Positions 1 through 10,442 of a DNA stretch of 12,691 nt are shown here, one piece after another (the stretch's first letter is position 1; each line of letters begins with the position of its first letter). The position numbers and the translations under genes are program-made. Under the pieces are notes generated by a model, which was not told the origin of the DNA, ran no database searches, and saw nothing but the letters and a program-made list of their open reading frames with translations. Source of the stretch: Chloroflexota bacterium (GTDB lineage Bacteria; Chloroflexota; Anaerolineae; Anaerolineales; Anaerolineaceae); assembly GCA_021796375.1 (NCBI GenBank), contig JAJYJF010000024.1, positions 1 through 12,691 on the forward strand, read 5' to 3'.

Positions 1-704
1 GAGGCGAAGCGGTAGCCCAGCCCCGGCTCGGTAATGATGTGCGCGGGGTGCAGTGGGTCATCTTCGATTTTGTGTCGAAGCTGAGAAATGAAAACGCGCA
101 GGTATTCGCGCTGGTCCCCCGATTCGAAACCCCATACGGAGCGCAGCAGTTCCTGGTGGGTAACCACCTTCCCGACCCGCTGGGCAAGATAGAGCAGCAT
201 CCCAAACTCGGTTGGGGTGAGCCGGACCGGTTTTCCGCGTACCAGCACCTGGCGCGCGGCAGGGTAGACGGTGAGATTCCCATGCGTGATGGAGGTTTCC
301 TGACCGTGCTGGACGGTCTCCCCGCGGTAGCTGGCCCACCGGCGCAGCGCGGAGCGAACCCGGGCCAGAAATTCCTCCATGCTGAAGGGCATCACCAGGT
401 AATCGTCCGCGCCCAGGTCCAGGGCCTGGATCTTCATGTACTCCTCGCCGATCGAGGACAGCACGATCATCGGGGACTGGCTCAGCTTCCGGAGCTGGGC
501 GCAAATTTCCAGGCCGCTCACCCTCACCTCGGTGAATTCCAGATTCAGGACGAAAAGGTCGGGCGTAATCTGCTCGGTGATCTCGTAAGTTTCCAGGTCG
601 TCCAGCGCGAGGGAAACCTCATATCCCCGGCTGACCAGATTCCGGCGCAGCGTGCGGAGAATATTGGGTTCGTCACCGATCAGCAGAATCCTGGGCTGAC
701 TCAT
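1..704 (-). CDS. KdpE/OmpR-type response regulator with degenerate receiver domain (3' end cut by window)
   Basis: Transcription regulator with a receiver domain (about residues 4-122) and an OmpR/PhoB winged-helix DNA-binding domain (about 138-234). The C-terminal part is typical of KdpE-like proteins: LTPTEF at 162-167, VVTHQELL at 180-187, EYLRVFISQLRHKIE at 200-214 and TEPGLGYRF at 225-233. Only the last few residues should lie outside the window. The receiver is atypical. The usual Asp-Asp or Glu-Asp acid pair is G10-D11. The phosphoacceptor position after beta-3 (VLDL in relatives) reads VLNL, with N54. The conserved Lys of the K-P-F motif is M105 (VMPF). S83 stands at the switch Thr/Ser position. 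Phosphorylation by the usual chemistry is therefore unlikely, while DNA binding looks intact. The start ATG lies 21 bp after the kinase-like gene and its ribosome site is weak (GGAAA). The two genes are probably co-transcribed. The family call is firm; the target genes are unknown. Confidence 0.9.
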   Translation of the reverse strand, partial: MSQPRILLIGDEPNILRTLRRNLVSRGYEVSLALDDLETYEITEQITPDLFVLNLEFTEVRVSGLEICAQLRKLSQSPMIVLSSIGEEYMKIQALDLGADDYLVMPFSMEEFLARVRSALRRWASYRGETVQHGQETSITHGNLTVYPAARQVLVRGKPVRLTPTEFGMLLYLAQRVGKVVTHQELLRSVWGFESGDQREYLRVFISQLRHKIEDDPLHPAHIITEPGLGYRFA

Positions 705-725
705 AAATCGTTGATTTCCAGAGCG

Positions 726-1484
726 TTACTTGCCGGGCAGGGCCGGGATCAAAATTCGCAGGATGCCTGATTGGGTCCCTGGATCACCAATTTCGAGGCG
801 GATATCCTGTTGAAACAGCAGGTGGACGGCCAGCCAGAGCCTGAGCTGGTACTCGGGCCCGAGAACGTCATCCGGGCTGGCGATCGTTTCCTGGTCTTTC
901 AGCAGCTTCTGGATTCTCTGGATCGTTGCATCCGGCATTCCCCGGATTTCCACAACCCAGGCCTGGGGCTGCTCGGCTGCCTCGATTTTGAAGGCCCGAG
1001 CTCCGAACTGGCAGGCTGTTTCGATCAGAAATTCGGTCGCCACAACCAGGTAATCAAAATTAACCAGCACCATTTTCCCGTCCGGGGGAAAGGCTACTTC
1101 CAGGACGAGATTGTCGATCCGCTGGGCAAGCTGTTCCTGAACCACCGAGAATACTTCCGTCAGCGCCTGGTAGCTCCGGTTGAGCTCGAGCGTGCCGGCT
1201 TTGATCCGGAAGATCAGGGTCATCAAATTGATCAGCCGGCCCACCTGGTCGATGCTGCTGTTGATGGTCTCGAGGAATTCGTGCTGGTTGGTTCCGTCCC
1301 AGAAAATATCATAGTTGAGCAGGCTGGAGACGGAGGCTTTGATGGCCGCGGAGGAGAGCTGGAGCCGCCGGTTGGTTTCAAACAACAGGTTCCAAACGGT
1401 CCGGTTTTCCTCCTGAACAGCTTCCGCTTTCTGGCGGAGAAGAAGGTTTTCCTGGTACAGGTCGTCGTAGGATCGTGGCTCCAT
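726..1484 (-). CDS. Degenerate histidine-kinase-like protein (pseudokinase)
   Basis: A 252-residue soluble protein with no membrane segment and no recognisable sensor domain. Residues 5-40 look like a coiled-coil helix. Residues 38-105 follow the two-helix dimerisation domain of KdpD-like sensor kinases: AAIKASVSSLL at 46-56, then EFLETINSSIDQVGRLINLM at 69-88, then KAGTLEL. The H-box is gone. Where relatives read SHELRTPL this protein has NRRLQLSS, and there is no histidine before residue 68. The ATPase part is also eroded: the N-box N-A becomes E-T-A (155-157), the D-x-G-x-G motif is replaced by IRGMPDA (180-186), and no GLGL motif is visible before the final strand ILRILIPAL. A longer frame could begin at 1553, but that would overlap the upstream gene; the ATG at 1484 leaves a 31 bp gap. 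Likely role: partner or ligand-binding scaffold for the adjacent degenerate regulator. That role is inference. Confidence 0.75.
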   Translation of the reverse strand: MEPRSYDDLYQENLLLRQKAEAVQEENRTVWNLLFETNRRLQLSSAAIKASVSSLLNYDIFWDGTNQHEFLETINSSIDQVGRLINLMTLIFRIKAGTLELNRSYQALTEVFSVVQEQLAQRIDNLVLEVAFPPDGKMVLVNFDYLVVATEFLIETACQFGARAFKIEAAEQPQAWVVEIRGMPDATIQRIQKLLKDQETIASPDDVLGPEYQLRLWLAVHLLFQQDIRLEIGDPGTQSGILRILIPALPGK

Positions 1485-1514
1485 AGGACTGCTTTTCGCT
1501 ATCCGCGTGTCTTT

Positions 1515-1520
1515 ATTATA
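1515..1520 (-). promoter_or_regulatory. Possible -10 box (TATAAT) upstream of the kinase-like gene
   Basis: On the minus strand a perfect TATAAT overlaps the stop codon of the upstream carbamate-kinase-like gene, with a leader of about 25 nt to the ATG at 1484. No good -35 is found (TTCGGG at 18 bp spacing is poor). It could give the two regulators expression independent of the operon. The match may be chance, created by the TAA stop. Confidence 0.3.
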
Positions 1521-2499
1521 ACGGAGTGGTTCGCTCAACCCGAAAAATATCAATTGAAGGGGAGAGCGAACCGATCCGAAGCCCGTTCTGCATGGAAAAC
1601 ACGTCGGGTAATTTCCGCAGGGTGGTGATCACCACCTGCTCCCCGCCTTCCTTCAGAAACTGGTATGCCGTCTGAAGTTTGCCCAGCACGTTGGAGGATT
1701 CAATCTTCGCCTGCTGGAGGATCGCCTCCAGGCCGTCGAGATCCAGGTGGTTCGTCCCCTCGGTAGTCAATCCGGAGAGCACATATTTTTCGTCGCTTTC
1801 AACCACCATGAGGAGCACGTTGGCCGCGATGCTGCGCGCGAAGATCTGCGCGACCTGCTCGGTACTGACGACCGCTTCGATCCCCTCATAATCTCCCCGG
1901 TCGTTCTGAATGACCGGAACGCCGCCGCCTCCTCCGGCGATCACGATATCTCTGGAGGAAACCAGCTGCTTGATGCTGTCCATTTCCAGGATTTCCCTGG
2001 CGGTATAGAGCGGAACTGCCCGGCGGTAGCCCCGGCCAGGCTCCTCGCGCATCGTCCACCCTCGGCCGAGGCGAAACGCCTCCGCTTTTTCGCGGTCGTA
2101 CCAGGGCCCGATGGTTTTTACAGGGGTATCGGAAGCGGAAGAATCAGCGTCCACGAGCGTCTGGGTGACGATGCTGGTCACCCTGCGGGAGATGGAATGT
2201 TTTTTGAGCACGTTTTTGAATGCCAGCGCCAGGATGTAGCCGGTGGCGCCCTGCGTGTCGGCCCCGCAGACATCCAGGGGAACCGTATGAAGCGCGTGGC
2301 TGGAAAGTTCGGAGCGCAGGAGCACGAATCCGACCTGGGGTTTGTTCCCATGCAAAATCAAGACCTGCAGGTCCTCCGCGAACAGCGGCAGGAGCGAGTC
2401 GGCAAGTTTGGCCGCGTTCAGCCGCTGGTCGGAGATTCTGGATCCCTGTCCATTTGCGAGAACTTCTCCATTCACGAGCACGACTACCGTTCCGCGCAT
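1516..2499 (-). CDS. Carbamate-kinase-like protein, paralogue 1, with altered active site
   Basis: Amino-acid-kinase fold protein of 327 residues, a normal to slightly long length for carbamate kinase. That enzyme makes ATP from carbamoyl phosphate and ADP. Family landmarks are clear: LHGNKPQVG at 49-57, PLDVCGADTQGATGY at 74-88, TQTLVD at 112-117, KTIGPWY at 128-134, GRGYRRAVP at 155-163, AGGGGGVPV at 188-196 and GIEAVV at 206-211. Several active-site elements differ. The N-terminal VALGGNAL loop is VLVNGEVL (7-14). The lysine of the AVIDKD motif is T213. The LTDVD-type motif is VVESD (232-236). GSMGPK is reduced to SNVLGK, keeping K274. K128 is kept. The start ATG follows GAGGGG, 8 bp after the stop of paralogue 2, so coupling is likely. 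Catalytic activity is doubtful; substrate or nucleotide binding remains possible. Family membership is sure, function is not. Confidence 0.85.
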   Translation of the reverse strand: MRGTVVVLVNGEVLANGQGSRISDQRLNAAKLADSLLPLFAEDLQVLILHGNKPQVGFVLLRSELSSHALHTVPLDVCGADTQGATGYILALAFKNVLKKHSISRRVTSIVTQTLVDADSSASDTPVKTIGPWYDREKAEAFRLGRGWTMREEPGRGYRRAVPLYTAREILEMDSIKQLVSSRDIVIAGGGGGVPVIQNDRGDYEGIEAVVSTEQVAQIFARSIAANVLLMVVESDEKYVLSGLTTEGTNHLDLDGLEAILQQAKIESSNVLGKLQTAYQFLKEGGEQVVITTLRKLPDVFSMQNGLRIGSLSPSIDIFRVERTTPL

Positions 2500-2507
2500 T
2501 CAGCCCC

Positions 2508-3482
2508 TCACCAGATCACCGATTTTAAACCCTTGATATCAATTATATCTTTTTGAAGCAGGATTCCCTGTGAGAACTCCAGGTTGGCCCGGACGCATTC
2601 CGGAGGGCAGAAATGAACCCATTTCCCACCGCTTTCCAAAAAATGTTTGGCTGCCAGGAATTTTTGATAGGTATCCGCGTCTGATTTGGAAACCTGATCC
2701 AGGATCGAATCGAGGTCCTGCAGCGAGAGTGCGGTTAGGGCCTGCGATGCGTCGACGGTCAGGAGGTTCTTCAGCCGGTCCCAGACCGAGACAAAGATGA
2801 TTCCATCGGCCTCCAGCTCCCGGGCGAGCAGTCCGGTTGTATCCGCCTTATTGACCACCGCTTCGACCCCGACCAGCTGGCCGTCCGGGTCCCGGACAAC
2901 CGGGATCCCACCGCCGCCGGCGCAGACGACGATCGTCCCCGGACCGATCAACCGGCGGATGAGGTTGATCTCCGGGATCTCTTTCGGGACCAGCAGCGGG
3001 ACCGCCCGGCGGTAGCCCCGGCCCGGGATGAGAACAAAATTCCAACCCCGGGTGTTCCGGTAAGTTTGGGATTTTTCCTGGTCGAAATATGGGCCGATCC
3101 CCCGCTCCGCCTGGCTGGCGGCGGGCTGGATCGGGTCCACGACGACCTGGGTGATGAGCGAAGCCACTTCTTTTTCGACGTGGTTTTCGCTCAACCAGTT
3201 TCGAATTGCCTGCTGCAGCAAATACCCGGTGGCGCCTTGAGTATCCGCTCCGCACACGTCCAGGGGCAGGCTGTGCACGATGTGACTGGCCAGCTCGGCG
3301 CGCAGGAGAACGAAGCCAACCTGCTGTGCATTCCCATGCGTGATCACAATCTCGTGCGGCGCGAGCAGTAAACCGCCGATCGCCCGCACGACGCAGTTGA
3401 TTTCCCGCCGCTGTCCGGCGATCCCCTGGCTCGGGTTCTGAGGGACCAACAGATCGCTGTCAATCGTAACGATCACACGCAT
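2508..3482 (-). CDS. Carbamate-kinase-like protein, paralogue 2, with altered active site
   Basis: Second amino-acid-kinase fold protein (324 residues), directly upstream of paralogue 1 and clearly related to it. The two share PLDVCGADTQGATGY exactly (73-87 here), THGNAQQVG at 48-56, GRGYRRAVP at 154-162, AGGGGIPV at 188-195 and GVEAVV at 205-210. The N-terminal GGNA loop is again missing: the first strand runs VTIDSDLLV (5-13). The lysine of the usual KPIGPFY segment is R127 (ERGIGPYF). Unlike paralogue 1, the lysine of the AVIDKD motif is kept (VVNKAD, K212). GSMGPK is replaced by ADTYQK, keeping K274. The start ATG has GAGGA upstream, 111 bp after the racemase stop. With complementary lysine losses and equal length, a heterodimer with paralogue 1 is an attractive inference, since known carbamate kinases are dimers. 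Confidence 0.85.
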   Translation of the reverse strand: MRVIVTIDSDLLVPQNPSQGIAGQRREINCVVRAIGGLLLAPHEIVITHGNAQQVGFVLLRAELASHIVHSLPLDVCGADTQGATGYLLQQAIRNWLSENHVEKEVASLITQVVVDPIQPAASQAERGIGPYFDQEKSQTYRNTRGWNFVLIPGRGYRRAVPLLVPKEIPEINLIRRLIGPGTIVVCAGGGGIPVVRDPDGQLVGVEAVVNKADTTGLLARELEADGIIFVSVWDRLKNLLTVDASQALTALSLQDLDSILDQVSKSDADTYQKFLAAKHFLESGGKWVHFCPPECVRANLEFSQGILLQKDIIDIKGLKSVIW

Positions 3483-3593
3483 ACGATCCTCGCAAAATGG
3501 GGTACTGCCGGCGAAAGAGAATATGGATTGGCCGCCCGGTGGCCTGGTTGGGGGGATGTGTGCTGAATCACCGATGCGCCCCGGCCGGCTCGA

Positions 3594-4340
3594 TTAATCG
3601 CGGTATGCCCGGCCGAACACCGGCGGGAGGTTCGGCAGCTCCACGCGCTTGGGGTGCAGGTAAGCCCGTTTTTTGCTGGTGTGCAGGCCGTATCCAACCA
3701 TGCCTTCCATCAGCTTCAATGCCGCCACCACGCCGTCCACGACCGGCACCTGCAGCTCCTGCTCCAGGCGTTTATCCATCCCGGACATCCCGGCGCAGCC
3801 CAGGCAAATCACCTCGGCCCCATCCTCTCCAATCGCCTGCTCGGAGGTGGATCGGATGACCCGGCCGGTCTCCTCAGGGGTAAGGCTTTCGAGGGCCAGG
3901 ACCGGCAGCCGCGTGGAGCGGACGGATGCGCAGCGCTCCGCCACCCCAAAATGGCGGATCCCATCCCAGAGAAGGGGCTCCCAGGCTTCGTCCGTGGTCA
4001 CGACGCTGAATTTGTAGCCCAGCATGCAGGCGTAGTATACCGACGCTTCGAAGATGCCGATGACGGGTTTGTCGGTGATTTCGCGGAGGGCGTACACGGT
4101 GGGGTGATCGCTGACGCAGGCGATCACGAATGCATCGTACTGGTCCAGCTGCGAGATCGCCACCTCCAGGGTGGGGGCCGCGCTCAGCAGCTCGTCGTAG
4201 ACGCACTCGATGGAGCGCGGTCCAGCGGCCGGGTTGCAGGCAACCGCCTCCGTCCCCGGCGCGGCGTACAGGTCGAGCGTTTCCTGCACCCTGCGGGTGA
4301 ATTCCGCGGTAGTATTCGGATTTATGAATAAGATTCGCAT
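3594..4340 (-). CDS. Asp/Glu/hydantoin racemase family protein (hydantoin or allantoin racemase)
   Basis: A 248-residue cofactor-independent racemase of the Asp/Glu/hydantoin family, the usual length. Visible landmarks are the N-terminal INPNTT (6-11), GPRSIECVYDE (40-50), the first catalytic cysteine in VIACVSD (C75), GIFEASVYYACMLGYKFSVVTT (95-116) and the second cysteine in EVICLGCAGM (C182), followed by VPVVDGVVAAL. The paired cysteines act as the two acid/base groups in this family. The family includes hydantoin racemases and allantoin racemases, and the sequence alone does not decide between them. The start ATG follows AAGGGA and is the first codon of the INPNTT-type N-terminus. It is the first gene of the leftward cluster, so its product may supply the ligand or metabolite sensed by the kinase-like proteins behind it. 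Confidence is high for the family, moderate for hydantoin-type substrates. Confidence 0.9.
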   Translation of the reverse strand: MRILFINPNTTAEFTRRVQETLDLYAAPGTEAVACNPAAGPRSIECVYDELLSAAPTLEVAISQLDQYDAFVIACVSDHPTVYALREITDKPVIGIFEASVYYACMLGYKFSVVTTDEAWEPLLWDGIRHFGVAERCASVRSTRLPVLALESLTPEETGRVIRSTSEQAIGEDGAEVICLGCAGMSGMDKRLEQELQVPVVDGVVAALKLMEGMVGYGLHTSKKRAYLHPKRVELPNLPPVFGRAYRD

Positions 4341-4591: not shown

Positions 4592-4738
4592 TGTGGGGGA
4601 TTAGGATCGCATAATGGAATGATAAGGGAAATGTAAAGATTCCAAGGGATTCTTAAGCTTGCGGGGTGGAGCTTCCACGGACCCAACCGCGGGGCTGGCC
4701 GCGGTCGCTGCGCTCGATTTCCTTCGATCCTGCCCGCA

Positions 4739-4747: not shown

Positions 4748-4865
4748 CCCCGGGGATGGATCAGTCTGAACGGGGAGCGATGAGCAGACCATGAAATTCT
4801 TCGCCAGGCATGGTAGCCGGAAATAGCTTCGTACCGGCCCGGAACGCGAAAGAGGAGGTTTGCCG

Positions 4866-5348
4866 ATGGCTGGAGATCTGGTCATCAACGTCAACGGGAA
4901 ATCTCACGCGGTAACCGCCGCGCCGGATACCCCGCTGCTGTACGTCCTGCGCAACGAGCTGGGGCTGCACGGTCCGAAATACGGCTGCGGGCTGGAGCAG
5001 TGCGGCGCCTGCATGGTGCTGGTAGGCTCGGAAGCCAGGAATTCCTGCAAGCTGACCGTTGGGGAGGTCGGCCAGGCACCGGTCACCACGCTGGAAGGCC
5101 TGATCGAAAATGGGGAGCTGCACCCCGTGCAGCGCGCCTTCATTGAGGAACAGGCGGCCCAGTGCGGCTACTGCACCGGCGGCATGATCATCCGCGCCAC
5201 CGCGCTCCTCCTCCAGAACCCGGAACCAAGCGACCAGAAGATCCGCGCCGCGCTGGACGGCAACCTGTGCCGCTGCGGATCCCACCTGCGCATCCTGCGC
5301 GCGGTCAAACGCGCGTCCGAGCTGATGTGGGGAGATGCGCAGCCATGA
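4866..5348 (+). CDS. Molybdenum hydroxylase small subunit, two [2Fe-2S] clusters
   Basis: A 160-residue iron-sulfur subunit of a xanthine dehydrogenase/aldehyde oxidase family enzyme. It passes electrons from the molybdenum centre. The N-terminal ferredoxin-type domain binds one cluster through C41, C46, C49 and C61 (CGLEQCGAC, then NSC). The C-terminal helical domain binds the second through C100, C103, C135 and C137 (QCGYCTGG and NLCRCG). All eight ligands are present and the length is typical of separate small subunits such as those of isoquinoline oxidoreductase and nicotinate dehydrogenase. AGGAGG at 4853-4858 sits 7 nt before the ATG at 4866, which decides that start over an in-frame TTG two codons earlier. 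The stop overlaps the start of the large subunit (ATGA), so translation is coupled. No export signal is seen; the enzyme is probably cytoplasmic. Confidence 0.95.
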   Translation: MAGDLVINVNGKSHAVTAAPDTPLLYVLRNELGLHGPKYGCGLEQCGACMVLVGSEARNSCKLTVGEVGQAPVTTLEGLIENGELHPVQRAFIEEQAAQCGYCTGGMIIRATALLLQNPEPSDQKIRAALDGNLCRCGSHLRILRAVKRASELMWGDAQP

Positions 5349-7534
5349 CGGACGCCGGCGGCGCAGCGTTTGCGAAGGGCGGCAGGGAAGACCCGCGGAA
5401 GGCGGGGTCTGGCCGGGCGGAATCAGCCTGGGGGGAGACCTCCACCTGGCTAGACGATTGGCTGGCGATCCAACCCGACGGCGCCGTTCTGGCGTTCAGC
5501 GGTAAGGTCGAGCTCGGGACGGGGGTAAAAACCGCGCTGGCCCAGATCGTGGCCGAGGAGTTGGACGTGCCGTTCGAATCGGTGCGCATGGTGATGGGCG
5601 ATACCGACCTCACCCCCAACGAAGGCTTTACCGCGGGCAGCATGACCATCCAATCCACCGGGACCGCGCTGCGCGCGGCCGCGGCCGAAGCCCGGCGCGC
5701 GCTCCTCGAGCTGGCCTCCGACCGGCTGGACGCGGCCGTCAACGAGCTGACCGTCGAGAACGGTACGATCCGGATCGCCAATCATCCCGACCGGTCGATC
5801 ACCTATGCGGAAATCATGGGCGGCCGGCGCTTTAACCTGCAGGTGACCGGGCAGGCGCCGGTGAAGCCGCCCGAAGCGTACCGCATTGTGGGCGTCTCGG
5901 TCCCGCGGGTCGATATCCCGCGGATCGTGAGCGGCGAGCACGTCTACATCCAGGACCTGGTTGTCCCTGGAATGCTGCACGCCAGGTTGGTCCGCCCGCC
6001 TCACTTGGGGTCAAAGCTCGTTAACATCGACGAGAGCTCGATCCGGGAACTCCCGGGTCCAGTCCAGCTGGTGCGGCACGGGAATTTTATCGCGGTGGTC
6101 TCCGAACGCGAGGAGCATGCCATCCAGGCGGCCCACCAGCTCGCGGTAGGCTGGCAGATGGCGGGGAATCTGCCCGGGAATCAGGGGCTGTACGATGCCC
6201 TGCGCGGCCAGCCGGCCCAGGAGCGGGTCTTGCTGGACGAGGGCGGTGTGGAGCGCGCGCTCGAAGGTGCTGCCCGCCGACTGCATGCGATCTACACCCA
6301 GCCGTACCAGGCCCATGCCTCGATCGGGCCGTCTTGCGCCGTTGCGGATGTGCGCGGTGATCGGGCCACGATCTGGACTGCCACGGCGGGCCCGCATCCC
6401 CTGCGGGACGTGCTGGCGCAGCTGGCCGGGATGTCTCCGGAGCGGGTGCACCTGGTCAACGTGGAAGGCGCGGGGGGGTTCGGTCACAACGGCGCCGACG
6501 ACGCCGCTGCCGACGCGGTCGTACTCTCCAAGGAACTGGGCAGGCCGGTGCGGGTGCAGTGGTCGCGCGAGGACGAGTTTATCTGGGAGCCCAAAGGCCC
6601 GGCGGGGGTGATCGAGATCACCGGCGGCCTGGACGAAACCGGCCAGATCGTTGCCTGGGATTACCATCTCTGGTCGCCGACGCACGTCAACCGGTCTCCG
6701 GTCGCGCAGTTCCTGCCGACCTCCCTGCTGATCAGCGGACAGACCGCCCCGGCGTCGCCTTTCGCTTTTGGCGCCGAGCGCAACGCGCGGACCAATTATT
6801 CGTTTTCGAAACAGCGGGTGACCCTCCACTATACCTCCGACAGCCCGTTGCGGACTTCCGCTTTCCGCAGCCTGGGAGGCGCGGAGAATACCTTCGGCAA
6901 CGAATCCTTCATGGACGAGATGGCCGCTGCCGCCGGACTGGACCCGATCGAGTTCCGCCTGCGCTACCTCGACGACCCCCGCGGGCGAGCGGTGATTCAG
7001 GCCGCCGCGGAGCGCGCCCGCTGGGAGCCGCGGCCTTCCCCTGGACTCCGGCGCACCGGACCGGAGGGGGCTGCCATTGGGCGCGGCATGGCGTACGCCC
7101 AATACGAGAACGACCAGGCGATCGTCGCCAGCATCGCCGAGGTCGAGGTAGATCTTTCGAGCGGCGCGGTGCGGGTGACGCGGTTCGTCGTGGCGCAGGA
7201 CTGCGGGCTGATCATCAACCCGGATGGGGTAAAGAACCAGATCGAAGGCAACGTGATCCAATCCTTGAGCCGGGCGCTCAAAGAAGAGGTCAGGTTCGAC
7301 CAGGACCGGATCACCAGCGTGGACTGGGAGAGCTATCCCATCCTGAAGTTTTCCGAGGTGCCCGAGGTTGAGATCGTCCTGATCAACCGCCCCGACCAGA
7401 GGGCGGTCGGCGTCGGGGAGCCTGCGACGGTGACGACCGCGGCGGCGGTCGCAAACGCAATTTTCGACGCCACCGGCGTGCGCATGCGCCAGATCCCATT
7501 CACGCCAGAAAGGGTCAGGGCCGGCATCTCGTGA
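5345..7534 (+). CDS. Molybdenum hydroxylase large subunit, molybdopterin-binding
   Basis: A 729-residue catalytic subunit of the xanthine dehydrogenase/aldehyde oxidase family (COG1529 type), carrying the molybdopterin centre that hydroxylates N-heterocycles or aldehydes. Features in order: the N-terminal GKVELGTGVKTALAQIVAEELD stretch (about residues 50-70), AGSMTIQSTG, the VPRVDIPRIVSGEHVYIQDL linker, a GGFGHNGADDAAADA segment like that of nicotinate-dehydrogenase-type enzymes, LRTSAFRSLGGAENTFGNESFMDEMA, and the active-site VGVGEPA motif with the probable catalytic E692 (codon 7418-7420). No twin-arginine signal is present, unlike many relatives. The start is fixed by the ATGA overlap with the small subunit; the open frame extends further upstream only inside that gene. 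No FAD subunit is adjacent, so electrons probably go to another carrier. The true substrate cannot be read from the sequence. Confidence 0.93.
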   Translation: MTDAGGAAFAKGGREDPRKAGSGRAESAWGETSTWLDDWLAIQPDGAVLAFSGKVELGTGVKTALAQIVAEELDVPFESVRMVMGDTDLTPNEGFTAGSMTIQSTGTALRAAAAEARRALLELASDRLDAAVNELTVENGTIRIANHPDRSITYAEIMGGRRFNLQVTGQAPVKPPEAYRIVGVSVPRVDIPRIVSGEHVYIQDLVVPGMLHARLVRPPHLGSKLVNIDESSIRELPGPVQLVRHGNFIAVVSEREEHAIQAAHQLAVGWQMAGNLPGNQGLYDALRGQPAQERVLLDEGGVERALEGAARRLHAIYTQPYQAHASIGPSCAVADVRGDRATIWTATAGPHPLRDVLAQLAGMSPERVHLVNVEGAGGFGHNGADDAAADAVVLSKELGRPVRVQWSREDEFIWEPKGPAGVIEITGGLDETGQIVAWDYHLWSPTHVNRSPVAQFLPTSLLISGQTAPASPFAFGAERNARTNYSFSKQRVTLHYTSDSPLRTSAFRSLGGAENTFGNESFMDEMAAAAGLDPIEFRLRYLDDPRGRAVIQAAAERARWEPRPSPGLRRTGPEGAAIGRGMAYAQYENDQAIVASIAEVEVDLSSGAVRVTRFVVAQDCGLIINPDGVKNQIEGNVIQSLSRALKEEVRFDQDRITSVDWESYPILKFSEVPEVEIVLINRPDQRAVGVGEPATVTTAAAVANAIFDATGVRMRQIPFTPERVRAGIS

Positions 7535-7772: not shown

Positions 7773-10442
7773 GTGCAGGGCACCGATCCGCTCATCCGCA
7801 CGAAACTACGCCCGCCGTTCATCCGGCCCAGCCGGGTGGCCCGTCCGCACCTGGCTGCCCGCCTGGCCGAAGGCTTGCGCGGACCGCTCAGCCTGATCGT
7901 CGCCCCGGCCGGGTTTGGCAAGACCACACTGGCGGCTGAGGCCCTGGCTGCCGCTGGCCTCCCGGCCGCCTGGCTGTCGCTGGACGCAGGGGATAACCAG
8001 CCCGGACGGCTGCTCGTCTACCTGATCGCCGCCCTGCAGGCGGTCGACCCGGGGATGGGCCGGGAGGCAGACCAGCTCCTTTCTGGGCTGCAGCCAGCCC
8101 CCGAAGAGGCGGTGCTCGGGAGCCTGATCAACGACCTGGAGGAGGGCAGCGGCGACCTGGCGCTGGTGCTGGACGACCTCCAGTTCCTCACCCACCCGGC
8201 CGCTTACAGGCCGGTAGCCTTTCTGGTCGAGCACTGCCCCCGCCGGCTGCACCTGCTGGTGGCCAGCCGTTCGGACCCGGCCCTGCCGCTGGCCCGGCTG
8301 CGGGCGCGCGGGCAGCTGGTGGAGCTGCGCGCCGCGGACCTGCGCTTCAGCCGGGAGGAGGCGGGCGCCTTCCTCACCGGTGTGATGGGGCTGCAGCTGG
8401 ACGGCGGATCGGTGGCCCTGCTCGAAGCGCGCACCGAGGGATGGGTGGCCGGGCTGCAGATGGCGGCCCTCTCCTTACGCGAGCGGGAAGACGTGGCCGG
8501 GTTTATCCAGGGTTTCTCGGGCACCCACCGCCACATCCTGGATTACCTCTTAGAGGAGATCCTCTCGGCTCAGCCGGAGCAGGTGCAGGCCTTCCTGCTG
8601 GAGACCGCGCTCCCCGAGCGGTTGTGCGGGGGGTTATGCGAGGCCCTGGTGGGGGGAGAAGTGGGGTCGGGGCAGGCGATGCTGGAATACCTGGACCACA
8701 ATAACCTGTTTGTGGTGGGGCTGGACGAGGAGCGGGGCTGGTTCCGCTACCACCACCTTTTTGCCGACCTGCTGAGGGCCCGGCTGGCACAGGCCCATCC
8801 GGAGCGGGTGGGGGAGCTGCACCGGCGGGCGGCGGGATGGTTCGAGGGGCAGGGGTGGATCGCGGAGGCGGTGCAGCAGCGGGTGGCCGGCGGGGAGGTG
8901 GAGAGTGCGGCGCGGCTGATCGAGCGCTATGGGCCGGCCCGCTGGGTGGTGAGCGACCCCTCGATCATCCAGATGGCCGACAGCCTGCCCCCTGACCTGC
9001 TCGCGAACTATCCCAAATTGAATCTATACCGGTCCTGGCTGCTGATCAGCCGGGGATCCATTGAGAAAGCGCTGCCCCTGTTGAAAAATTTGGAGGAGCA
9101 GCTTGCCGGTGCTGACCCGGCCTCCGGGCAGCATTGGATGTCCATGCTGGTCGGGCTGGCTTTATCCTTCCTGGCCTCCTCGCCGGTCGCGCCCGAAGCA
9201 GACCCACTCCCCGACCCCCGAGCTTTGGAGGAGATCCCTGCTGACGAGCCGATCTTGCGGGATGCCGCGGATAACTTTTATGGGATGACCCTGAGCAGGC
9301 GCGGGGATATCGACCGGGCTGCAGATTTCTCTGCCCGGTGCATTCAAAAGAAGAGGGTTTCCCAGGGGAGCCTGGAAGATATCGCCCTGACCCCGCTGCT
9401 GGCCAGCCTGTATCTTTTCCAGGGCCGCCTGCACGCTGCAGCCGCCCTCTGCCGGGAATTTTTAGCCTCCGTCCACTTGAAGGGGATCCGGGTCTCGACG
9501 GCCTGCAATATGGAGGTCGTTTTGGGGGACGTGCTCTATGAATGGAACTGTCTGGAGGAGGCCGAAAAGACCCTCCGGGATGGAATTCGGGCGAATGAGC
9601 CCTGGGGGAATATCATGGCGGACGGCTTTGGGCTCTTAGCCCTGACCTTCGTCCTCCAGGCAAAGGGCGACTTTCAGGGAGCGATGCAGGCCGTGGATCA
9701 GTTCGAGCAAAGGATGGGGGGGCAATTCCGGCCGGTCGAAATGAGAGGGCCTTTCCGCACCCTCCGGGTTCGCGTGCAGCTCGCCAGCGGCGACCTTCCG
9801 GGGGCGGCTGATTGGGCGGACCGGATTGAGCGCAGCGAAGACTTCCAGCTCCACCGCGATGATTACCGGATCACCCTCGCCAGCATCCGACTGGCGCAGG
9901 GCAGGTACGCGGAGGTCGAAAAAATACTGTCAGGGACGCCGGCCGTGCCGGTGGCCGGTAATCGGATTGCCTGGCAGATTGAATCCCACCTGCTCCTGGC
10001 CGCAGCGATCGCGGGGCAGGGGCGCCAGACGGAGGCATTCGGAATCGTCGAATCTTGTCTCGTGCTGGCCGAGCCGGAGGGGTATATCCAGGTCTTTTTG
10101 AATGCCGGCGGGCCGGCCCGGGAATTGTTGGTCGCTTTGCTTCGGTCTGGAGCTTCCGGACATGGAGCATTCGCCCGAAAGCTGCTTGAGGCATTTCTAC
10201 CGCCGGGAGAGGCTGATTCTCCTGCCTCTCAGCCAGCCGGGTTGGTCGAGCCGCTTTCAGAGCGCGAGGTCGAGGTGCTCCGCCTCATCGCCACGGGGAA
10301 GACCAACCAGGAGATCGCCCACCAGCTGGTGGTGGCCCGGGGCACCATCAAAGCCCACTCCGCCAGCATCTTCCGCAAGCTGGATGTCTCCAACCGGACC
10401 GAGGCAGTCGCCCGCGCCCGGCAGCTCGGCATTCTTCCCTAA
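7773..10442 (+). CDS. LuxR-family transcriptional regulator, MalT-like (LAL) ATPase
   Basis: An 889-residue signal-transduction ATPase with a C-terminal LuxR DNA-binding domain, close in size to E. coli MalT. Residues 5-16 (DPLIRTKLRPPF) are the usual opening of this group. The Walker A loop is APAGFGKTT (44-52) and the Walker B is LVLDD (131-135). WLSLD (67-71) and a SRSDP motif (165-169) follow the STAND ATPase pattern. Residues about 330-800 are helical repeats that probably sense a ligand or protein. The LuxR helix-turn-helix occupies 823-889 (LSEREVEVLRLIATGKTNQEIA, then GTIKAHSASIFRKLDVSNR). The start is GTG, preceded by GGAG; no in-frame ATG has a better site. The inducer is unknown. 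Likely targets include the small-protein/toast-rack/methyltransferase genes just downstream or the hydroxylase operon upstream; this is inference from position. Base use changes along the gene near 9000. Confidence 0.95.
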   Translation: MQGTDPLIRTKLRPPFIRPSRVARPHLAARLAEGLRGPLSLIVAPAGFGKTTLAAEALAAAGLPAAWLSLDAGDNQPGRLLVYLIAALQAVDPGMGREADQLLSGLQPAPEEAVLGSLINDLEEGSGDLALVLDDLQFLTHPAAYRPVAFLVEHCPRRLHLLVASRSDPALPLARLRARGQLVELRAADLRFSREEAGAFLTGVMGLQLDGGSVALLEARTEGWVAGLQMAALSLREREDVAGFIQGFSGTHRHILDYLLEEILSAQPEQVQAFLLETALPERLCGGLCEALVGGEVGSGQAMLEYLDHNNLFVVGLDEERGWFRYHHLFADLLRARLAQAHPERVGELHRRAAGWFEGQGWIAEAVQQRVAGGEVESAARLIERYGPARWVVSDPSIIQMADSLPPDLLANYPKLNLYRSWLLISRGSIEKALPLLKNLEEQLAGADPASGQHWMSMLVGLALSFLASSPVAPEADPLPDPRALEEIPADEPILRDAADNFYGMTLSRRGDIDRAADFSARCIQKKRVSQGSLEDIALTPLLASLYLFQGRLHAAAALCREFLASVHLKGIRVSTACNMEVVLGDVLYEWNCLEEAEKTLRDGIRANEPWGNIMADGFGLLALTFVLQAKGDFQGAMQAVDQFEQRMGGQFRPVEMRGPFRTLRVRVQLASGDLPGAADWADRIERSEDFQLHRDDYRITLASIRLAQGRYAEVEKILSGTPAVPVAGNRIAWQIESHLLLAAAIAGQGRQTEAFGIVESCLVLAEPEGYIQVFLNAGGPARELLVALLRSGASGHGAFARKLLEAFLPPGEADSPASQPAGLVEPLSEREVEVLRLIATGKTNQEIAHQLVVARGTIKAHSASIFRKLDVSNRTEAVARARQLGILP

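Follow-up and report, generated by a model that had tools for sequence, protein, structure and literature searches.

The gene system described here has its closest known relatives in ArcC carbamate kinases, the KdpD/KdpE two-component pair, aspartate-less regulators of the ChxR type and histidine kinase shells such as DivL. It lies on a 12,691-bp stretch of DNA (hereafter the window), which is the complete contig C426 (JAJYJF010000024.1) of a Chloroflexota metagenome-assembled genome (MAG) that is 64% complete. On the minus strand of the window we found a racemase gene followed by genes for two degenerate carbamate kinases (CK1 and CK2), a pseudo-histidine kinase (HKL) and a pseudo-receiver regulator (RR). 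The dead trio of carbamate-kinase-like protein, sensor kinase and regulator is conserved as a set and probably switches allantoin-breakdown genes without phosphate transfer.

Like the ArcC enzymes of Enterococcus faecalis (1b7b, 2we4) and Pyrococcus furiosus (1e19), CK2 (in its structure model) and CK1 (by sequence alone) have an amino-acid-kinase fold with HGN and GGGG motifs; unlike them, both have lost the GGN loop plus either Lys209 (CK2) or Asp210 (CK1), both fall far below the arcC cut-off, and CK2 is tied to a regulator pair. The likeness to KdpD/KdpE lies in RR, which is 45% identical to a KdpE-like regulator of genome G071 and has a similar putative recognition helix, in HKL, whose best NCBIfam match is KdpD, and in a repeat of the same type beside a KdpDE-like pair. 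However, HKL lacks the KdpD sensor domains, the phospho-accepting histidine and the GTG of the G2 box, the phospho-accepting aspartate of RR is Asn, and the linked genes are those of allantoin breakdown. Gal3 is an inactive yeast galactokinase that senses galactose, and thus resembles our proposal for CK2 as a metabolic kinase turned sensor of its own pathway, but it has a different fold, different partners and no two-component link. Aspartate-less OmpR/PhoB regulators of the ChxR type have, like RR, lost the phosphorylation residues and kept the DNA-binding domain, whereas the operon of RR also encodes a dead metabolic enzyme and a pseudo-histidine kinase that is conserved. In the portions of PMC12632262 available to us, the characterised aspartate-less regulators are greatly enriched for orphans, and the binding of ChxR to a direct repeat appears as a title in the reference list.

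As far as the accessible source text describes them, DivL and a ChrS variant are, like HKL, histidine kinase shells without full kinase function, and a DivL structure is among the matches of the HKL model; by that text, these proteins work in networks with functional partners, whereas the partner regulator of HKL also lacks its phosphorylation site. Control of the allantoin utilisation operons is the task of AllS and AllR in Escherichia coli, a separate system for which the excerpts available give no sign of a carbamate kinase relative or a two-component derivative as regulator. Among 5.39 million open papers, with subscription journals largely outside, we found no description of a carbamate-kinase-derived two-component regulator, of a carbamate kinase tied to allantoin in Anaerolineae or of a carbamate kinase pseudoenzyme, in agreement with a preliminary description of the window that knew of no system of this composition.

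Degenerate genes conserved as a set

The five genes are separated by gaps of 111, 8, 31 and 21 bp in the list of open reading frames (ORFs), as the preliminary description had it, and its view that four of the five are degenerate was borne out by alignment, with the qualification that CK1 keeps two active-site lysines.

HKL (726..1484 on the minus strand from an ATG start, with a TTG-started frame reaching 1553) gives no Pfam match, hence neither HATPase_c nor HisKA is detected by Pfam. A search among 5.8 billion proteins returned 65 homologous proteins including the window copy, 61 of them 244-279 amino acids (aa) long. We aligned 60 of these (P0019, P0029, P0047, P0059 and P0060 were excluded) and assigned columns by alignment to one KdpD-like protein, from G071. 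The column of the phospho-accepting histidine holds Arg in 58 sequences, Leu in one, Lys in one and His in none, and the GTG of the G2 box, which was the ATP-binding box scored, is deleted in 60/60, so that HKL has neither the phospho-accepting His of a HisKA kinase nor its full set of ATP-binding boxes. The structure model (predicted local distance difference test, pLDDT, 87.2) has DHp-like helices and a CA-like domain, the DHp-plus-CA architecture, and matches HK853 (6rh0) and other histidine kinases with template modelling (TM) scores of 0.70-0.74. Among NCBIfam models, KdpD scores best at 21.4 bits, followed by NblS at 21.0.

RR (3..704, minus strand, truncated by the contig end) is an OmpR-family regulator with a pseudo-receiver (PF00072, 62 bits, over the cut-off) and an intact-looking winged helix (PF00486, 79 bits). 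Followed within the fetched loci and judged from sequence, RR is altered at three positions in all ten genomes that carry HKL: the phospho-accepting Asp has become Asn, the conserved Lys has become Met or Leu, and the first acidic residue is Gly, Ser or Asn. With no phospho-accepting His, no GTG in the G2 box and no phospho-accepting Asp, the usual phosphate relay from HKL to RR is impossible; what is left conserved in the two proteins is shape and surface.

These ten HKL-positive genomes are that of the window and seven more among 400 genomes of the order, G609 among 396 of the class, and G002 among 61 relatives, where the weaker HKL matches outside G002 are ordinary-sized kinases. A 251-genome order sample used below is assumed to be a subset of the 400, in which its low handle numbers had already been assigned. 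The order CK2-HKL-RR is kept in 9/10 of these genomes, and CK2 directly precedes HKL-RR in all nine that have it. Neighbouring locus tags are also borne by two GenBank-named proteins, AB9891_03730 (CK2) and AB9891_03735 (HKL). The tenth genome, G609, has HKL-RR without an adjoining CK2, and its best CK2 relative, at no more than 38% identity, is CK1. At a threshold of at least 48% identity, CK2 was found in 9/10 HKL-positive genomes vs 0/13 other genomes searched. CK1 occurs in 2/251 order genomes and 2/298 class genomes, the window's genome being in both samples, which makes three genomes, all HKL-positive; the CK1 profile scores drop from over 490 to 314 bits at the next best match.

Each of the two degenerate kinases also occurs without the other. 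Seven genomes have CK2 without CK1 (five by the CK1 profile, G002 and G364 by their other matches being ordinary kinases), and one, G609, has CK1 without CK2, so that no HKL-positive genome is without a dead carbamate kinase. An ordinary carbamate kinase, its GGN, DKD and GSMxPK intact, is likewise present in each of the ten, and the dead ones are therefore additional. Equal contig sizes (11,034, 15,194 and 88,117 bp) suggest that CK1 resides with CK2 or HKL on further metagenome contigs. We rejected CK1 and CK2 as an obligatory pair, and we also rejected the five genes as a unit: the exact five-gene order was seen only in the window's genome, and conservation covers only the three-gene unit in the genomes searched. 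G463 was discarded as a further member, its weak match (78 bits) lying in an ORF of about 950 aa with no triplet.

CK1 (2508..3482, minus strand) has DSD in place of GGN and NKA in place of DKD, and retains the equivalents of Lys209 and Lys271. In CK2 (1516..2499, minus strand) NGE replaces GGN, STE replaces DKD and HGNK replaces HGNG. Both fail the 358-bit cut-off of the arcC model TIGR00746 (CK2 211, CK1 196), which an intact paralogue on contig C329 of the same genome passes with 383 bits, and both barely pass Pfam AA_kinase (28.2 and 26.3 bits vs a cut-off of 24.9). CK2 lacked six C-terminal residues (1537 instead of 1519) in the Pfam and NCBIfam scoring, in its homologue search and in some locus comparisons; the full-length protein was used for the family counts, the structure model and the census at 48% identity. 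The CK2 model (pLDDT 85.6, below 50 at residues 54-76) has 1e19 as its best structural match (TM 0.76-0.79).

We examined the active-site positions GGN, Lys128, Lys209, Asp210 and Lys271 in 120 listed matches for each family, of 5411 passing for CK1 and 4275 for CK2; residue numbers for Asp210 and Lys271, and the carrying over of numbers from one enzyme to another, follow this alignment. In the CK1 family, where the loop is gapped in 3/120, the first Gly of GGN is Asp in 116/117 (mostly as DGD), Asn11 is Asp or Glu in 104/117 and remains Asn in two, and Asp210 is gone in 119/120. Lys209 is present in 120/120 and Lys271 in 112/120, and Lys128 is Lys in 90 and Arg in 30. In the CK2 family, Asn11 is Glu in 118/119, Lys209 is Thr or Ser in 120/120 and HGNG is HGNK in 120/120, while Asp210 is Glu in 109 and Asp in 11, and Lys128 and Lys271 are Lys in 63/120 and 62/120, respectively. 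With CK1 retaining two active-site lysines, the losses differ between the two dead kinases. The 32 ordinary carbamate kinases of related genomes, taken from the fetched loci, keep all active-site positions (32/32), a comparison that is circular at GGN and HGNGPQ, on which they were selected. In a tree of 82 rows, CK1 (25 of the 120), CK2 (25 of the 120) and the ordinary enzymes (all 32) each form a single group, with support of 100/97, 100/99 and 100/100. The altered residues are thus fixed within the CK1, CK2, HKL and RR families, and the fixed losses particular to each family, together with the gene order kept in nine genomes, uphold the earlier suggestion of repurposing over decay.

According to the parts of PMC3474736 available, the side chain of Lys209 and the backbone nitrogens of Gly10 and Asn11 touch the phosphate of carbamoyl phosphate, and Lys128, in the protruding subdomain, closes onto the ligand. 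The altered phosphate loop of CK2, with a new Lys in HGNK, Glu at Asn11 and Lys209 lost, argues against its binding carbamoyl phosphate in the usual manner. CK1, in which Lys209 is retained, might bind it.

Allantoin genes and an 11-bp repeat

The genomic setting, which goes beyond the preliminary description, is that the module accompanies allantoin genes, and that a common repeat marks both these genes and the operon of the module. The racemase (3594..4340, minus strand; PF01177, 205 bits) is an intact member of the Asp/Glu/hydantoin racemase family, and its closest solved relative is the 'Allantoin racemase' 5lfd/5lg5 (163 bits), followed by the 'Putative hydantoin racemase' 3qvj (146 bits). 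With this nearest relative, the gene is more likely a target gene than a component of the switch, and we predict the activity of an allantoin racemase. Homologues 66-68% identical lie on allantoin island contigs of G609, G242 and G002.

An allantoin-type carbamoyltransferase and a dual periplasmic binding protein are present in 8/10 HKL-positive genomes. In G242, contig C123 carries, beside CK1, an aspartate-carbamoyltransferase (ATCase)-like carbamoyltransferase (233 bits vs a cut-off of 237), and also an ordinary carbamate kinase, the allantoinase AllB and the ureidoglycine aminohydrolase AllE, all three above their cut-offs, an M20 hydrolase, a ketol-acid reductoisomerase homologue and a second carbamoyltransferase. 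The CK1 relative lies immediately downstream of the carbamoyltransferase in both G242 and G609. In the window's own genome, contig C329 has the carbamoyltransferase, the intact carbamate kinase and AllB. Similar clusters were recognised, mostly by eye, in G227, G257, G151, G071 and G002, and a model match confirmed AllE in all of these but G002. G609 has the carbamoyltransferase on contig C146 and, by eye, an AllE-like gene, a racemase, a binding protein and ABC genes on contig C67; no allantoinase was seen there within the stretches fetched.

The carbamoyltransferase of the C329 type occurs in 6/251 order genomes, all HKL-positive (Fisher 2e-11), the five others being 71-81% identical, and also in G002 (78%) and G609 (72%). 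Relatives in G116, G364 and G463 are only 32-36% identical, and G045 has none. AllE was found in 6/251 order genomes, five of them HKL-positive and one, G045, not (Fisher 1.6e-8); it was not found in the window's genome, of which 64% is present. The dual binding protein is present in 8/10 HKL-positive genomes vs 0/20 other genomes. Collectively, the link of the triplet to allantoin genes is well supported.

Some features of the island genes stand by themselves. The binding protein (L105:1814-4195 on contig C206 of G000, with relatives at loci L121-L128) fuses Peripla_BP_6 and Peripla_BP_4 domains, and in some relatives adjoins, by eye, ABC genes of both the ribose and the branched-chain type. 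The ATCase-like carbamoyltransferase (L003:3-1031 and L086:10228-11229), slightly below the aspartate carbamoyltransferase cut-off, is a candidate catabolic transcarbamylase; E. coli oxamic transcarbamylase is encoded by allFGH, in the excerpt available. The ketol-acid reductoisomerase homologue of the allantoin operon (L086:3669-4655 and L088:7742-8728), above the TIGR00465 cut-off, may act as the oxidoreductase of a step of the ureidoglycolate type.

A motif search in 23 hand-chosen intergenic regions around these genes gave a single dominant motif, the direct repeat RTAARGAA-N3-RTAARGA with a period of 11 bp, whose likelihood of 121.0 compares with 59.7, 67.1, 63.0 and 59.7 in four shuffled sets (equal effort, one width). 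Scanned over the same loci with up to two mismatches, the consensus gave 37 matches, overlapping registers included, that form 16 arrays in 234 kb (20 loci, ten genomes), vs 2, 3, 1 and 4 matches in shuffles. By the ORF picking of the script, a gene contains one of the 37 and a doubtful 104-aa ORF contains two, and the other 34 are intergenic. When no more than one mismatch was allowed, over 22 loci and 247 kb, period 11 gave 22 matches and period 22 gave ten, vs 0-1 at the other periods from 8 to 21.

In the window, the candidate operator at 4609..4641 (plus strand) consists of three 11-bp direct repeats, GCATAATGGAA TGATAAGGGAA ATGTAAAGATT, and holds the sole repeat match of the window (4622-4639, one mismatch). 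On contig C206 of the same genome, the gene for the dual binding protein has an exact copy in front of it. With up to two mismatches, the repeat precedes the dual binding protein in 8/8 genomes (in G002 it stands before a racemase that precedes the binding protein) and the carbamoyltransferase in all seven cases with readable upstream DNA. Dimers of the OmpR/PhoB family bind tandem 10-11 bp repeats. The putative recognition helix of RR, EYLRVFISQLRHKIE, differs little from that of the KdpE-like protein, EYLRVFMRQLRKKLE, and with helices nearly identical, one type of box fits both. The box thus suits a KdpE relative, and the island's pseudo-RR would be the most economical choice as the protein that binds it, with canonical KdpE as its rival.

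The signal of the repeat is in placement and tandem copies, not in raw number. Exact matches in five HKL-less genomes were set aside as background: one context was fetched for each, drawn from at least six exact matches in such genomes, and the neighbours look unrelated by eye. An exact match on contig C283 of G071 also has neighbours that look unrelated, and a one-mismatch match in G364 lies within a gene. That a repeat stands before every triplet is unsupported. Tandem repeats of the same type lie at L090:1610-1650 and L108:2772-2800, near genes that by eye are a glycine-cleavage T-protein and serine-pathway genes, which suggests that the regulon extends to glycine and serine metabolism.

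A proposed switch and its alternatives

We favour, as somewhat likely, a phosphotransfer-free switch of allantoin and purine catabolism in which a dead carbamate kinase is the metabolite sensor. The operon would unite an allantoin racemase with the regulator of an allantoin/purine catabolic regulon, this regulator being a former KdpDE-like two-component pair that lost phosphotransfer at both ends. CK2, without turnover, would bind a small anionic metabolite of the pathway, such as carbamoyl phosphate, carbamate, oxamate or another ureido-acid product, and perhaps a nucleotide. Its state would be passed by contact to HKL, an adaptor that keeps the helical and CA-like shell, and HKL would control the dimerisation or DNA binding of RR. 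The winged helix of RR would then act, as activator or repressor, on the tandem 11-bp repeats in front of three operons: that of the racemase, that of the dual binding protein and its ABC genes, and that of the carbamoyltransferase and allantoinase. In genomes that have it, CK1 may be a second sensor, an alternative input (no other dead kinase was found in G609) or a carbamoyltransferase partner. The best argument for an input role is the dead carbamate kinase in every HKL-positive genome, with CK1 standing in for CK2 in G609. We see an even chance for the fullest form of this proposal, a signalling chain made wholly of dead enzymes, in which the carbamate kinase has become a receptor and the histidine kinase a mechanical adaptor, and a phosphate-independent regulator governs the allantoin/purine regulon via the 11-bp repeats. 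The preliminary description had the carbamate-kinase-like proteins report, as a pair, to the dead two-component proteins; such an input is still the best reading, and the pair as one device is now doubtful, CK1 and CK2 being found separately.

Here a pseudo-receiver has a conserved pseudo-kinase as its partner, and there are candidates for its sensor, its regulon and its operator. If the proposal is true, the system would provide a cognate, co-inherited pair of pseudo-kinase and pseudo-receiver with a known operator, and a catabolic enzyme turned receptor for its own pathway, and it would link uncultured Chloroflexota to allantoin and purine use.

Several findings weigh against this switch. 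The HKL-positive genomes are related, so that the counts are not independent, and each is either a draft MAG or an assembly of unknown finish. In G116 and G364 the triplet is accompanied by neither the carbamoyltransferase nor the binding protein, and no repeat was found at their fetched triplet loci. None of seven CK2 upstream regions has a good repeat, the best scoring at most 13.6 vs about 18-24 at the target genes, which suggests self-regulation only in cases like that of the window, where a target gene precedes the module. Genome-wide, counts at one mismatch are close to or below those of the reversed pattern (74 vs 71 in the ten HKL-positive genomes, 108 vs 156 in twenty others), and exact copies, one or two each, occur in some HKL-less genomes. 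The best NCBIfam models for RR are RpaB (173.2 bits) and YycF (166.6), with KdpE only third (160.6); RR fails the 325-bit cut-off of KdpE (PRK10529) and also those of RpaB and YycF. Finally, CK1 keeps Lys209 and Lys271 and could thus be an enzyme, and an identical 18-mer, ATAAGGAAAAAATAAAGA, occurs exactly on contig C446 of G071 (L107:2733), with a permease operon (PF13520) on one side and a KdpDE-like pair on the other.

The retained lysines of CK1 lead to the alternative that survives best, unlikely as we judge it to be, in which CK1 and CK2 are allantoin-pathway enzymes with altered chemistry, or carbamoyl-phosphate channelling partners of the carbamoyltransferase, and HKL-RR is regulated otherwise. 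The direct adjacency of CK1 and carbamoyltransferase in two genomes fits it, as does the coupling of carbamate kinase to catabolic transcarbamylases described in the available parts of PMC6022934. However, CK2 has in all 120 sequences lost the lysine said in the accessible text of PMC3474736 to contact the phosphate of carbamoyl phosphate, it stands directly before HKL-RR wherever it occurs in these genomes, and all ten genomes have an ordinary carbamate kinase as well.

The 18-mer beside a KdpDE-like pair means that the repeat could belong to KdpE, and we regard as improbable the corresponding alternative, that canonical KdpE or another intact regulator owns the repeat, the triplet being just carried along or having its role elsewhere. 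The same 18-mer is exact on contig C199 of G000 (L104:4537), also a permease-like locus and in another family; the two loci are distantly related, their two proteins being 24-28% identical, and ATAAGGAAAAAATAAAGA is a possible KdpE box of Chloroflexota. The absence of the repeat before CK2 is in keeping with this alternative as well. Against it, eight genomes, from four families, combine HKL with the repeats, the allantoin carbamoyltransferase and the dual binding protein, the near identity of the putative recognition helices makes RR itself suited to such a box, and at up to two mismatches no repeat was found at 23 ordinary carbamate kinase loci of HKL-less genomes (86 kb), which are not allantoin operons.

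It is less probable again that RR is constitutively active and governed by its amount alone, with CK2 and HKL affecting its stability or being vestigial. The available parts of PMC12632262 discuss a pseudo-receiver regulator governed by how much of it is expressed, yet HKL (31-65% identity of the homologues to the window copy, 17 invariant columns) and CK2 (56-78%, many invariant columns) are conserved as would not be expected of vestiges. Random decay or sequencing error in a single genome, an idea to which a MAG contig from a genome 64% complete lends itself, is ruled out by conservation: there are 64 further HKL homologues, the altered residues hold over 120 rows, and HKL frames are free of inner stops in ten genomes.

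Other genes of the window

On the plus strand, a molybdenum-hydroxylase operon of the xanthine dehydrogenase family diverges from the racemase operon, with the repeat region between them. It encodes a 2Fe-2S subunit (4860..5348; Pfam Fer2 and Fer2_2) and a large subunit (5345..7534; Pfam MoCoBD_1 and MoCoBD_2), both below all NCBIfam cut-offs, and no FAD-subunit gene immediately adjoins these two (4860-7534). On the same strand follows a gene for an 889-aa protein (7773-10442), by eye a LuxR regulator of the MalT type.

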